Below are positions 25,813 through 30,868 of a stretch of 64,000 bases of DNA, in pieces. The first letter of the stretch is position 1, and each line of letters starts with the position of its first letter. The stretch lies in contig JALHNI010000001.1 of the NCBI GenBank assembly GCA_022843605.1, positions 1-64,000 on the forward strand. Reading direction: 5' to 3'. The notes beneath the pieces are model-generated. The model was given only the letters and a program-made list of their open reading frames with translations, did not search any database and was not told where the DNA came from. The translations under genes and the position numbers were made by a program. This DNA comes from Bryobacter sp. GTDB lineage: Bacteria > Acidobacteriota > Terriglobia > Bryobacterales > Bryobacteraceae.

Positions 25813-26955
25813 ATGGCCAAAATTCTGATTTCCGCGGGTGAGCCCTCGGGCGACCTCTATGCCTCGGCGTTGGTGGAAGCGCTGCGACGCCGCGATCCGG
25901 GGCTGGATTTTTTCGGCTGCGCGCAACCGCGGATGCTGGCGGCGGGAGTCCGGCCGGTGATGGACGCCGGGAAGCTGCATGTGGTGGGAGTTTTCGAGGT
26001 CATCACGCACATCCCAGGTATCTGGGCGGAGTATCGAAAGCTAATCCGCGCAGCCGATGATGAGAAGCCGGCGCTCGCCATTTTGACCGATAGCCCGGAT
26101 TTCAATCTGCGGGTGGCTCGCCAACTGGCAAAGCGGAAAATCCCGGTGGTTTACCTGGTGGCGCCGCAGGCTTGGGCCTGGCGATCCGGCCGTACGCGGC
26201 AGATGGCGAGGGATCTTCGCCGCCTGCTTTGTATCTTCCCTTTCGAGGAGGCCTGGTTTCGTGAGCGGGGAGTTCCGACGGACTATATCGGGCATCCGTT
26301 AGCGAGCCAGGTAAAGCGGACCATGAGTACTGCTGAATTTCGCGGCGAATTGGGCATCCCGGACAACCGTCATTTGGTGGCGCTACTGCCGGGGTCGAGG
26401 CCCGGGGAGGTCCGGCGGCACCTGCCGATTCTGCTGGACGCCGTCAAAAAACTGTCAAATCGTCCTATCTCGTTCGTTCTGGGCGCTGTTCCTTCGCTGG
26501 GACACGGTTTTTTTGTAAACCAGTTAGCCTCGGCATCCATCCAAGGAAGCGTGAAGGTAATTGAGGGTCGAACGCGAGATCTGTTGGCTTCTGCTGACGT
26601 CGCGCTGGCTGCCAGCGGAACGGTGACCGTGGAAGCGGCGCTGCTGGGTACCCCGATGGTGACATTTTACCGAGTGAATTCAGCGAGTTGGGGGTTAGGC
26701 AAACTGCTGGTGCGCACGCCCTACTTCACGATGGCCAACCTGATTGCGGGCCAAATGCTGGTGCCCGAGTTAATGCAAAACGAAGCCACCGGTGAGCGCC
26801 TGGCCGCCGAGACGGCCCGGTTGCTCGATTCTCCGCTTGAACTTGAACAGATGCGCGCTGGCTTGGCGCGAGTAGCTACGCTCCTCAATACGGGCCATGA
26901 TCCAATAGAAAGAGCCGCCGATATCGTGAGCGGTATGTTGACTGAACATGTGTAA
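25813..26955 (+). CDS. lpxB: Lipid-A-disaccharide synthase
   Basis: The 380-residue GT19 enzyme joins UDP-2,3-diacylglucosamine and lipid X during lipid A synthesis at the inner membrane. The N-terminal ILISAGEPSGDLYASALVEAL, VYLVAPQAWAWRSGR, YIGHPLA, LLPGSRPGEVRRHLP and ASGTVTVEAALLGTPMV motifs are all present. Its presence shows an LPS-bearing outer membrane. The ATG directly follows the decarboxylase stop, and the gene end overlaps the next by eight bases, giving a tight operon. Confidence 0.95.
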   Translation: MAKILISAGEPSGDLYASALVEALRRRDPGLDFFGCAQPRMLAAGVRPVMDAGKLHVVGVFEVITHIPGIWAEYRKLIRAADDEKPALAILTDSPDFNLRVARQLAKRKIPVVYLVAPQAWAWRSGRTRQMARDLRRLLCIFPFEEAWFRERGVPTDYIGHPLASQVKRTMSTAEFRGELGIPDNRHLVALLPGSRPGEVRRHLPILLDAVKKLSNRPISFVLGAVPSLGHGFFVNQLASASIQGSVKVIEGRTRDLLASADVALAASGTVTVEAALLGTPMVTFYRVNSASWGLGKLLVRTPYFTMANLIAGQMLVPELMQNEATGERLAAETARLLDSPLELEQMRAGLARVATLLNTGHDPIERAADIVSGMLTEHV

Positions 26956-28885
26956 TTTCTTCCTCGTGCTATTTCTGGCAGCCTCAACGGTGTCGGCCCA
27001 AACGAACCGCTCGGCGGCGGTGAACGTTGAGCACTACAACATTAACGCCGAGATCAATCCGCGGACGCAGGCGCTGTCGGCCACGGTGGAAATTCGAATT
27101 ACGGCCGTGGACGACCGGGTGATCACCATTCCGCTTGACTTCAACGACGCGCTGTCGGTAAAAGAAGCCACGGATGAAACTGGCGCCAAGCTGGGTGTGA
27201 CGAAGGGCCCGAACGAATTCCAGATTTCTGTGGCGTTGCCCCGGCCAATTGCGAAGAACGCCTCGACGACAATTCGTCTGGTTTATGACGGGGTGCTGGC
27301 GGGCCAGGAAGAGTCGCCCGTGTATGGCATCCGGTTCGCGTCGATTAAGAACGACTATGCGTTCCTGCTCTACCCCGCGCGCTGGTTCCCGATTAACGGC
27401 TATACGGCGGATCGCTACACGATGAATTTGAAGGTGACCGCGCCGGACGGTTTCCGCGTGCTATCGAACGGTTTGGAGTCGAAAGCCGGCACGGCTTGGT
27501 CGTTTGAGACGAAGACGCCCGGTTTTCCGGGAAACATCGCGCTGGTGCAAGGGGAGCCGCAGCGGGTGAGCGCGCAAGGCGTTACTTCGTCATTCTATCT
27601 GCGCGAGGCGAAGGCCATGGCCCAGGCTTACGGTGACGAAGCCGGCAAGGTGATGACGCAGTTGACCGGCTTTTTCGGTCTCGCTCCTGCTGCCAATCTG
27701 ACTTTTGTGGAAACCGAGAAGGGTGCGCCTTCGGGCTATTCGACGCCGGGCTTGGTATTCCTTTCGCCTGGCGGTATGGGTACGACCGTGAACACACGGC
27801 TGCTGACGAATCAGATGGCGCGTCAGTGGTGGGGCAACACGGTTTCGGCGGCGACGCGCAACCATTTGTGGATCACCAACGGTCTCGCGCGCTATACGGA
27901 GGCGCTCTATCTCGAGAATACGGTGGGTACGGGCGCGCTGGAATCTGAGAACCGCGACCTCTATATCGAGGCCCTGACCGTGGATCAGCCGCCGCTGATT
28001 CAGACCTCGCGGTTGGAAGATTATTCACCTGAGTTCAATGCCGCGACGGCCGGCAAAGGCGCCGCAGTGTACAACATGCTGCGTTTGGTGATGGGCGATA
28101 AAGTATTCGGGGATTTCCTGAAACAATTGGCGACGAAGTACAACGGCAAGAGCGTGACTACCGAGCAGTTCAAGAATCTGGCGAGCGAACTGGCGGGCCA
28201 GGATCTGGGGTACTTTTTCATTCAATGGATTGAGTCCCAGGGCGCGCCGGAATTCAAGCTGGAGTACACGGTCTTTCGCACGGCGAAGGGCTTCCGAATC
28301 AACGGCAAGGTAGTGAACGATTTGGACACGTTCCGCATGCCGGTGGAACTGAAGATCGAGACCGAAGGCAATCCGGAGATGAAGACCGTCGAAGTGATCG
28401 GCTCATCTAGCGAATTCGCGGTGGAGACCTTCGGCAAGCCTCAGCGCGTGACGCTTGACCCGAGCGGCAAAGTGTTGCGGTGGTCCAATCCGATTCGGGT
28501 GTCGGTGGCCATCAAGAAGGGTGAGCAATTCGCCGAGGTGAACGAGTTCGGTGAGGCGCTGAAAGAGTATCAAAAGGCGCTCGACGTGAACCGGAATAGC
28601 TCGCTGGCGCACTACCGGGTGGCGGAATTGTTCTTCCTGCAGAATAACTACCAGTCGGCAGCAAACGAGTTTCGCGAAGCGCTCAACGGCGATCTGGAGC
28701 CGAAATGGGTTGAAGTGTGGGCGCACATTAATCTGGGCCAGATTTTCGACATCACCAATCAGCGCGAGCGTGCGGTGAATGAATACAATCTGGCGATCCG
28801 TACCAAGGACGACACCCAAGGTGCGCAGGCCGAAGCGGCTAAGTATCTGAAGGATCCGTACAAACGACAGGTACGGCCGGAGTAA
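26948..28885 (+). CDS. M1 aminopeptidase-like exported protein lacking zinc ligands, with C-terminal TPRs
   Basis: After a signal peptide (MCNFFLVLFLAASTVSAQ) comes an M1-family N-terminal beta domain and catalytic fold. At the place of HExxH-WWG there is NQMARQWWGN, and the second Glu motif (normally NEGFA) reads TNGLARYTEALY. Both zinc His residues, the general base Glu and the third ligand are thus changed. The fold is retained with its C-terminal beta region, then TPR-type repeats (SLAHYRVAELFFLQNNYQSAANEF; INLGQIFDITNQRERAVNEY). It is probably a non-peptidase scaffold or binding protein. It overlaps lpxB by eight bases. Confidence 0.85.
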   Translation: MCNFFLVLFLAASTVSAQTNRSAAVNVEHYNINAEINPRTQALSATVEIRITAVDDRVITIPLDFNDALSVKEATDETGAKLGVTKGPNEFQISVALPRPIAKNASTTIRLVYDGVLAGQEESPVYGIRFASIKNDYAFLLYPARWFPINGYTADRYTMNLKVTAPDGFRVLSNGLESKAGTAWSFETKTPGFPGNIALVQGEPQRVSAQGVTSSFYLREAKAMAQAYGDEAGKVMTQLTGFFGLAPAANLTFVETEKGAPSGYSTPGLVFLSPGGMGTTVNTRLLTNQMARQWWGNTVSAATRNHLWITNGLARYTEALYLENTVGTGALESENRDLYIEALTVDQPPLIQTSRLEDYSPEFNAATAGKGAAVYNMLRLVMGDKVFGDFLKQLATKYNGKSVTTEQFKNLASELAGQDLGYFFIQWIESQGAPEFKLEYTVFRTAKGFRINGKVVNDLDTFRMPVELKIETEGNPEMKTVEVIGSSSEFAVETFGKPQRVTLDPSGKVLRWSNPIRVSVAIKKGEQFAEVNEFGEALKEYQKALDVNRNSSLAHYRVAELFFLQNNYQSAANEFREALNGDLEPKWVEVWAHINLGQIFDITNQRERAVNEYNLAIRTKDDTQGAQAEAAKYLKDPYKRQVRPE

Positions 28886-29600
28886 CCGCCACCATCAACT
28901 CCATCAGTTTATCGACCGGTAACTGCTCAGCGCGGAGACCGGCTTCCGGGCGGCGCTCGATGGCAGGATAAAGCAATCGAAGGTTGTTGCGCAAGGTCTT
29001 GCGCTTGTGCTGAAAGCAAGTGCTAAAGAACCGTTTGACGGCTTCAAAGTCTGGGGGACGGCTGGCTTTGGGCCGCAAGCGAATCACGGCGGAATCCACT
29101 TTGGGGGGCGGTGAAAACGCCCCTGGCGGAACGGTGAAGAGCAACTCCACGTCGGCGACCAACTGCGTGATGGCGCTCAAGTAGCCGTAGTCGCGTTTAC
29201 CGTGCCGGGCGGTGATCCGTTCGGCGACTTCGCGTTGGATCAGGAAGACTGCAGAGGAGAGGCCTGGGACCTCCAGTACGCGTTCAATGATGGGCGAAGT
29301 GATGTAATACGGCAGGTTGCCGACCACGGCGGTGGCCCCGAAGTCGGCCAGGTTGGCGGCCAGAACGTCGGACTCCACGACTTCGATATTCGGGAAGCGG
29401 ATTTTGAGTGGCGCGATCAAGTCGTGGTCAATTTCAATCGCGACGAGACGCTGGCACAAGGGCACCAGATGAGCCGTCAGGGCACCGCGACCGGGGCCAA
29501 TCTCAAGGAGGGTGGGCACGCCTTCGGCGCAGGCCGCAGCGGCGATGCGCGCGAGGATGTTCGCGTCCCGAAGGAAGTGCTGGCCAAGCTTACGCGGCAT
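28839..29600 (-). CDS. rsmA: 16S rRNA dimethyladenosine transferase
   Basis: Also known as ksgA. The 253-residue enzyme dimethylates two adjacent adenines at the 3' end of 16S rRNA. It has the N-terminal PRKLGQHFLRD, SAM motif I LLEIGPGRGALTAHL, catalytic motif IV VVGNLPYYITSPII and the C-terminal PKVDSAVIRLRP segment. Its ATG directly follows the stop of the anti-sigma-like gene, so it is the third gene of a sigma-factor operon. Its 3' end overlaps the convergent M1-like gene by 47 bases. Confidence 0.95.
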   Translation of the reverse strand: MPRKLGQHFLRDANILARIAAAACAEGVPTLLEIGPGRGALTAHLVPLCQRLVAIEIDHDLIAPLKIRFPNIEVVESDVLAANLADFGATAVVGNLPYYITSPIIERVLEVPGLSSAVFLIQREVAERITARHGKRDYGYLSAITQLVADVELLFTVPPGAFSPPPKVDSAVIRLRPKASRPPDFEAVKRFFSTCFQHKRKTLRNNLRLLYPAIERRPEAGLRAEQLPVDKLMELMVAVTPAVPVVCTDPSDT

Positions 29601-30185
29601 TTAGCCGCGCACGTCAATGTGGCCGCGCCGGAACGAGAGCCGAACTTTGCCCGGAATCGGCTGGCCGAAGGAAGTAGCCGGGACGAACTCGGCAAACAAA
29701 AGTGCGGCGTCGATCTTGTTCTTAAGCTGCTTGTCGTTCTGAATCGGGACGCCGCCGTCGACGAAGGCGTAGTCAAGGACGCGGCCGGTCTCGTCGATCG
29801 TCAGGTCGATCACGACCTCTTCAGTGTCGAGCGGGAACAGCCCCATGTTTTTGAAGGACGCTTCCGTGTAGAGCACGGTTGGCACATCGGTGGTGCTGGC
29901 GTGGGCCAAGGTAGGGTAGTTCATCGCGGCGACGCTGAACAAGATCACCGCCGCCGTCAAGCCACCGACGGTGGGAATGGCCAGCGGACGGGCCAAATTC
30001 TCAAAGACCAGCCAAGCGCGATCACGGTAGTGGGCGGCCGCGGACTGCATGGAGGAGAAGATGTTGCGGCGGGTCCGCTCGCGCGACGCAATCACCCGCA
30101 GCCGGGTAGAAAGGTCACTGGGGGGGACGCGCTTCGGCAAGGCGTGCAACGCGGACTCAATCACTTGCGCGGTTCGATCGCTCAC
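29601..30185 (-). CDS. Single-pass membrane protein with TonB-C-like domain, candidate anti-sigma factor
   Basis: From GTG 30185, which overlaps the sigma-factor TGA, the protein is 194 residues. It has a cytoplasmic part of about 75 residues with a helical SDRTAQVIESALHALPKRVPP start, one membrane helix (PTVGGLTAAVILFSVAAMNY) and a periplasmic domain with EEVVIDLTIDETGRVLDYAFV, resembling a TonB C-terminal fold. Its position directly after an ECF sigma gene and its topology are typical of anti-sigma factors, but no zinc-type HxxxCxxC is present. The role is inferred. Confidence 0.7.
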   Translation of the reverse strand: MSDRTAQVIESALHALPKRVPPSDLSTRLRVIASRERTRRNIFSSMQSAAAHYRDRAWLVFENLARPLAIPTVGGLTAAVILFSVAAMNYPTLAHASTTDVPTVLYTEASFKNMGLFPLDTEEVVIDLTIDETGRVLDYAFVDGGVPIQNDKQLKNKIDAALLFAEFVPATSFGQPIPGKVRLSFRRGHIDVRG

Positions 30186-30868
30186 GAGTTTCCTCCTGCC
30201 GGCGCCCACACCATAGCCGGCGCCGCTTCCTCGGCCACCAACTGCCTCCGTACCGCTTCGCGGCCACGCAAGATGCGAGACTTCACCGTTCCCAGGTTCG
30301 TATCCAGAATGGCCGCAATCTCCTCGTAGCTGAGCTCTTCAATGTCGCGCAGAATAACGGCCGCGCGAAACACCGGCTTCACTTCCTGCAGAGCTGTTTC
30401 GATCCGTTCCCGCGTTTCATGGTCCAGGGTCATTTGGAACGGCGACGGACCAGGATCGGGCAACACATCCATGTAGCTGACGCTCTGCTCGTCCGCGGTT
30501 TCAAGCGCCGTCTCCTGCTGCCGGTGACGACGAAACCAGCGGCGCTGGTTATAGCTTTCGTGCACCGCAATCCGGTAAATCCAGGTCTTCAGCGAACAAT
30601 CGCCACGGAAGCCATCCACCTTGCGAAACACTTTCAAAAAGACTTCCTGCACGACATCGGCGGACTCGGTGGGGTCATTGAGCAGACGATAGACCAAGTT
30701 GTATACCGGATGTTCAAATCGCTTAATCAATTCCTCGTAGGCCAATTCCTCATTGGCTCGCAGGCGTTCAATCAGGAGGGCGTCTTGGGCGTAGGCGTCC
30801 AGGGCCGCAGCGTCTGGCTGGCCGGCACCCGAATAGCCAAGGATCGAATTGAGGGGAGCATTCGGCAT
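30182..30868 (-). CDS. ECF RNA polymerase sigma factor (RpoE-like)
   Basis: The 228-residue protein has region 2 (YEELIKRFEHPVYNLVYRLL, ADVVQEVFLKVFRKVDGFRG, SLKTWIYRIAVHESYNQRRW) and region 4 (VFRAAVILRDIEELSYEEIA, then LDTNLGTVKSRILRGREAV). The short linker and lack of regions 1 and 3 define an ECF sigma factor, which redirects RNA polymerase to envelope-stress-type promoters. The gene is followed with a four-base overlap by the putative anti-sigma gene and then rsmA. Confidence 0.93.
   Translation of the reverse strand: MPNAPLNSILGYSGAGQPDAAALDAYAQDALLIERLRANEELAYEELIKRFEHPVYNLVYRLLNDPTESADVVQEVFLKVFRKVDGFRGDCSLKTWIYRIAVHESYNQRRWFRRHRQQETALETADEQSVSYMDVLPDPGPSPFQMTLDHETRERIETALQEVKPVFRAAVILRDIEELSYEEIAAILDTNLGTVKSRILRGREAVRRQLVAEEAAPAMVWAPAGGNS

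Follow-up and report, generated by a model that had tools for sequence, protein, structure and literature searches.

We found that the gene directly downstream of lpxB in a contig of Bryobacter sp. encodes an M1-peptidase homologue that has lost every zinc ligand together with its catalytic residues, and that the zinc site of this family was lost repeatedly within Acidobacteriota. Our reading, to which we give a probability of roughly 60%, is that the product is an exported (periplasmic) protein with an M1 fold and a TPR domain that is not a peptidase, a former enzyme repeatedly converted, which binds a partner in the envelope and is tied to a step involving the outer membrane or LPS. The sequence losses, the predicted fold, the conservation, the linkage and the repeated loss come directly from computation; from them we infer the missing activity, the export, the binding role and the envelope or LPS link, the binding role by elimination.

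The pseudo-M1 gene is a complete open reading frame of 645 codons with an ATG start (Table 1; positions refer to the window, the whole 64,000-nucleotide stretch of DNA that was analysed). The eight-base overlap with lpxB described in an earlier note on this DNA was observed in the sequence, and the identity of lpxB was confirmed by its Pfam profile (PF02684), for which this gene was the sole match in a search of its own genome. Also retained, as that note had stated, were the signal peptide, judged by eye, and the C-terminal TPRs, detected by Pfam. Hydrophobic N-termini were observed ahead of the conserved core in most listed relatives, and the AlphaFold model placed a helix at residues 3-15 with low pLDDT at residues 10-21. 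The recurrence of signal-peptide-like N-termini across relatives suggests that the protein is exported. On the opposite strand, a convergent ksgA-like gene (28839-29600, RrnaAD 181 bits) overlaps the end of the pseudo-M1 gene tail to tail by 47 bases (28839-28885). Beyond it, the minus strand (29601-30868) carries a sigma-factor-like ORF (30182-30868), named by eye, and after it a second ORF (29601-30209) that overlaps it.

Table 1. Positions in the window of lpxB, the pseudo-M1 gene and the parts of its product.
Feature	Position	Strand	Basis
lpxB (lipid-A-disaccharide synthase)	25813..26955	+	Pfam LpxB (PF02684), 300.5 bits
Overlap of lpxB end and pseudo-M1 start, 8 bases, ATGTGTAA	26948..26955	+	Sequence
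Pseudo-M1 gene, probably non-catalytic M1-peptidase homologue of 645 aa ending in TPRs	26948..28885	+	
Probable Sec signal peptide, residues 1-17 (MCNFFLVLFLAASTVSA; next residue Q)	26948..26998	+	By eye
N-terminal beta domain, residues 25-220	27020..27607	+	AlphaFold secondary structure; structural match to M1 enzymes
Thermolysin-like (former catalytic) domain, residues 221-430	27608..28237	+	Pfam M1 match 287-427; helices 283-298, 308-326
Former GAMEN exopeptidase motif, residues 261-268, without Glu	27728..27751	+	Alignments
Former HExxH, residues 288-292, now NQMAR	27809..27823	+	Alignments
Former distal zinc-ligand Glu, residue 311, now Asn	27878..27880	+	Alignment; residue 292 + 19
Former catalytic Tyr, residue 368, now Ala	28049..28051	+	2 residues ahead of conserved KGA
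Beta-sandwich domain, residues 431-512, strongly conserved	28238..28483	+	Strands 437-503; dN/dS 0.028
TPR domain, residues 513-640, most constrained part	28484..28867	+	Pfam TPR; helices 514-635; dN/dS 0.008

The M1-peptidase fold that had been proposed from the sequence was supported by both profile and structure comparisons. The Pfam Peptidase_M1 profile (PF01433) matched with 63.7 bits against a cut-off of 27.7, and TPR_2 also exceeded its cut-off. An AlphaFold model built from a 48-sequence alignment had a mean pLDDT of 90.2 and a pTM of 0.85, with the N-terminal saddle and thermolysin-like domain fold of M1 homologues both predicted. The best structural match was leukotriene A4 hydrolase (LTA4H; Z 37.7, rmsd 3.3, 409 residues), and Deinococcus M1dr (Z 36.9) and E. 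coli aminopeptidase N (PepN; Z 36.4) were also matched; the structures of these three enzymes overall had Z 35-38, and the match of the predicted fold to M1 enzymes runs over residues about 19-533 (Z 36-38). Foldseek matches to IRAP and ERAP chains had E-values of 1e-27 to 1e-30. The two helices that hold the zinc site of M1 enzymes are kept within this predicted fold (283-298 and 308-326). The domains follow in the order beta domain, thermolysin-like domain, beta sandwich and TPR domain, and the TPR domain stands at the position of the helical C-terminal domain of other M1 proteins. The protein is like MEROPS family M1 (LTA4H, e.g. 4gaa; M1dr, 6a8z and 6ifg; aminopeptidase N/ERAP) in its predicted fold, domain order and site spacing, but unlike the enzymes of that family it carries a C-terminal TPR domain and is without a zinc ligand, catalytic Glu, GAMEN Glu or Tyr.

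Within the former active site, the segment of HExxH reads LLTNQMARQWWGN and that of the distal Glu reads WITNGLARY. The alignment gives N288, R292 and N311 at the positions of the zinc ligands and Q289 at that of the catalytic Glu, while the HExxH-x18-E spacing is preserved, N311 lying exactly 19 residues past residue 292. The loss of every ligand was thus as the earlier note had described it, and two further losses that it had not listed were observed: the GAMEN equivalent is GYSTPG, without Glu, and the catalytic Tyr position ahead of KG(A) is A368. The GAMEN Glu is missing in zinc-intact family members too. HExxH-x18-E, a GAMEN-type Glu and a catalytic Tyr, which define an active M1 enzyme, were all absent, and the residues at these positions suggest a protein without M1 chemistry. 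The Bryobacter sp. genome has four other M1 genes with HExxH intact, so ordinary M1 activity would be supplied by those.

When 396 Acidobacteriota genomes were searched with a profile, 274 of them had relatives at E < 1e-30, and more than 100 of these relatives were full-length and TPR-bearing (roughly 400 bits and more). They fell into three groups. Clade A mostly has R[RK]xx[YRL] with a distal D or E; clade B has RExxY with a distal Q, and so keeps the catalytic Glu and has lost both His and the distal Glu; clade C comprises Terriglobia and neighbours. We observed lpxB directly upstream on the same strand for 24 of 25 members of clade A and 112 of 118 of clade C (136 of 143 together), and for 0 of 27 of clade B. 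Two of the seven exceptions (L082, L083) had a same-strand lpxB about 1.6-1.7 kb off. The coupling to this lipid A pathway gene is therefore conserved across deep acidobacterial lineages in clades A and C, and clade B is unlinked. No constant gene context was found at clade B loci (e.g. L100, L113, L118, L133), and nearly all genomes carry lpxB elsewhere. Since this clade keeps the protein without an adjoining lpxB, adjacency is unnecessary for function. The upstream order in clade A (e.g. L108, L112, L115, L134) was an ECF-sigma-like gene, an unassigned gene, mnmA, lpxB and the pseudo-M1 gene. Besides lpxB, no neighbour common to clades A and C was found in this comparison, which used crude gene calling and in which antisense ORFs gave some false clusters. 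Two sequences from records labelled Nevskia soli and Bacillota (L044, L052) also have lpxB upstream and group with the acidobacterial sequences; their records are probably mislabelled or mixed metagenome bins.

This distribution can also be read as operon inertia, in which a non-catalytic envelope protein and lpxB merely share housekeeping envelope expression and the linkage has nothing specific to lipid A or LPS. The unlinked state of clade B fits such an account, as do the position of the tRNA-modification gene mnmA next to lpxB in clade A and the location of LpxC and LpxD on other contigs in the Bryobacter sp. genome. Against it, the pair was kept across two deep clades, between which no other shared neighbour was found. 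We regard operon inertia as possible but doubtful, and favor a binding protein whose tie is to an outer-membrane or LPS step. A larger lipid A cluster around lpxB was rejected for this genome, given the separate contigs of LpxC and LpxD.

Linkage to lpxB was also observed for family members in which the zinc site is intact. Twelve of the 14 members with HExxH and a distal E or D were lpxB-linked, which indicates that the linkage predates many of the losses, and seven of the nine HExxH...E members listed (L207, L202, L191, L174, L180, L194, L204, L053, L203) have lpxB directly upstream. L053 and L203 were unlinked, with their lpxB on another contig, and only these two carried the complete catalytic set (HExxH, distal Glu and Tyr), which was observed in no lpxB-linked member examined. 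Because L053 and L203 are sisters, they count as one evolutionary observation and are suggestive only. The catalytic Tyr was retained in these two alone of the 14 HExxH...[E/D] members, and we rejected it as the norm among zinc-intact relatives. Compared with the pseudo-M1 protein, the zinc-intact members have the same domain order and TPR end and keep HExxH...E.

The genomes around L053, whose HExxH is intact, yielded additional members with an intact zinc site, as well as numerous partial losses among sister lineages. Using four-letter site codes for the residues at 288, 289, 292 and 311, the contrasts between sisters were HEHE in L191 against HEQE in L192, HEHE in L202 against YANA in L200, and HEHE in L207 against NEHV in L201, the last pair being sister to all Bryobacterales NQxxR rows. 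On a tree built with the motif columns masked, 14 irreversible losses were needed when a distal Asp was accepted as a ligand and 16 when it was not; the deepest branches were poorly resolved, so 14 is an estimate and the exact number is uncertain. Unrestricted parsimony needed 8 or 9 changes, but the site would then have to be rebuilt. Bootstrap values were 99-100 at key nodes of the careful tree. A single ancestral loss was rejected, as placing all broken sequences in one clade cost 1200 log-likelihood units (AU p 6e-5), and forcing the Bryobacterales and Acidobacteriaceae N-types together, apart from L207 and neighbours, was rejected more weakly (p 0.013), in tests run under LG+G4 with no mixture model, on groups defined by motif once the tree had been seen. 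Homologues with intact HExxH, which the earlier note would have taken as a sign of local mutation, were indeed present in some lpxB-linked Acidobacteriota, but the pattern they form is one of repeated independent loss and not of a local event.

Throughout the Bryobacterales-type clade the loss was fixed. A species-genome scan gave 59 loci, mostly from Bryobacterales, and an intact site was absent from all 51 Bryobacterales-type rows. These rows had N288 in 51 of 51, a count that is partly by construction as the rows were chosen for Asn at 288, with R292 in 50 of 51 and N311 in 50 of 51. The same loss pattern was observed in 45 Bryobacterales-type rows of an unselected alignment. The position of the catalytic Glu was occupied by Gln, Glu, Ser or Asn. 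Acidobacteriaceae-type rows instead had N288 (30 of 30), H292 (28 of 30) and N311 (26 of 30). The near-invariance of 288, 292 and 311 in the Bryobacterales-type rows indicates a site that was rebuilt and then conserved, without drift. Over the whole protein, dN/dS against the nearest relative (L001, 86% identity) was 0.056; it was lowest in the TPR part (0.008), followed by the beta sandwich (0.028) and the former catalytic domain (0.048). These values are rough, coming from one pair only with synonymous sites near saturation (dS 1.6). Loss of catalytic residues, purifying selection and broad conservation were thus found together, as in a pseudoenzyme.

A conserved polar cluster raises the alternative that the protein is still an enzyme, with a metal-independent or differently coordinated activity through N288, Q289, R292 and N311. 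The near-invariance within Bryobacterales speaks for it. In roughly half of the lineages that lost the site, moreover, a basic 288 or 292 goes with an acidic 311, which would mean a rebuilding that is not random, as if side-chain charge had replaced the zinc ion. The rebuilt residues nevertheless vary by lineage (NQxxR..N, NTxxH..N, RRxxY..D, RExxY..Q, EQxxR..D), unlike one conserved chemistry, and the catalytic Tyr is lost as well, and we consider a new enzymatic activity improbable. The unusual motif alone would suggest that the Bryobacter sp. gene was recently inactivated, is a pseudogene or reflects an assembly error; this was dismissed because the same loss occurs in L001 and 49 further Bryobacterales-type rows and the frame is open with a low dN/dS.

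The reading we prefer, an exported M1-fold and TPR protein that binds an envelope partner, would begin with a zinc peptidase homologue already beside lpxB in an acidobacterial ancestor. We propose that the selected function had no need of zinc, so that the active site could decay time and again, and that every large lineage then turned it into a conserved polar site. A protein or peptide of the envelope would be the binding partner of the former substrate groove and the TPR domain, and the pseudo-M1 protein could act there as a scaffold, chaperone or holdase. The strongest constraint, in the TPR part and the beta sandwich, argues for partner binding, with the former groove perhaps retained as a second conserved surface. 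Co-expression with lpxB would suggest a step of outer-membrane or LPS assembly, and gene order is the sole basis on which we suggest a lipid A or LPS role. LpxB works on the cytoplasmic side, so direct action of an exported protein on LpxB is unlikely, and the link is more plausibly one of co-expression with outer-membrane biogenesis.

Non-catalytic use of an M1-type fold, as proposed here, has a counterpart in TAF2 of eukaryotic TFIID, an M1-like scaffold without peptidase function. The two are not known to be close relatives, and unlike the pseudo-M1 protein TAF2 belongs to a nuclear transcription factor and has no lpxB link. LapB/YciM, the LPS-assembly TPR protein of E. coli, shares TPRs and a link to LPS, which here is one of gene order; LapB itself is oriented towards the cytoplasm and lacks an M1 domain. 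The LapB profile (NCBIfam NF008756) gave a generic TPR match of 14 bits to the pseudo-M1 protein against a cut-off of 474. Metallopeptidase homologues that lack activity and work through binding are a known kind (PMC11266112), and that pseudopeptidase review makes no mention of the M1 family, TAF2, aminopeptidase N or Acidobacteria. A paper on lipid A evolution describes lpxD-lpxC-fabZ-lpxA-lpxB clusters, and an M1-type partner of lpxB is unmentioned in the portions consulted (PMC3087551). In the literature searched, mostly outside subscription journals, we found no published report of the pseudo-M1 family and none linking Acidobacteria, lpxB and M1 peptidases.

For pseudoenzymes, only a handful of loss events is usually on record. 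In the present family a single orthologous gene, with its genomic address and its adjacent gene fixed, has zinc sites that range among sister lineages from intact through partly lost to fully lost. This is a natural experiment on the use to which an enzyme fold is put when selection for catalysis has ceased. A bolder possibility, which we hold only tentatively, is a phylum-wide, dedicated LPS or outer-membrane assembly factor on an M1/TPR frame, coupled to lpxB in most lineages, its approximately 14 decays reflecting that binding and the lpxB link, and not catalysis, were selected. Annotation as an M1 peptidase from the profile only will be wrong for these pseudo-M1 genes, whose product is a so far unstudied candidate for a factor of the envelope or of LPS assembly in one of the major phyla of soil bacteria.
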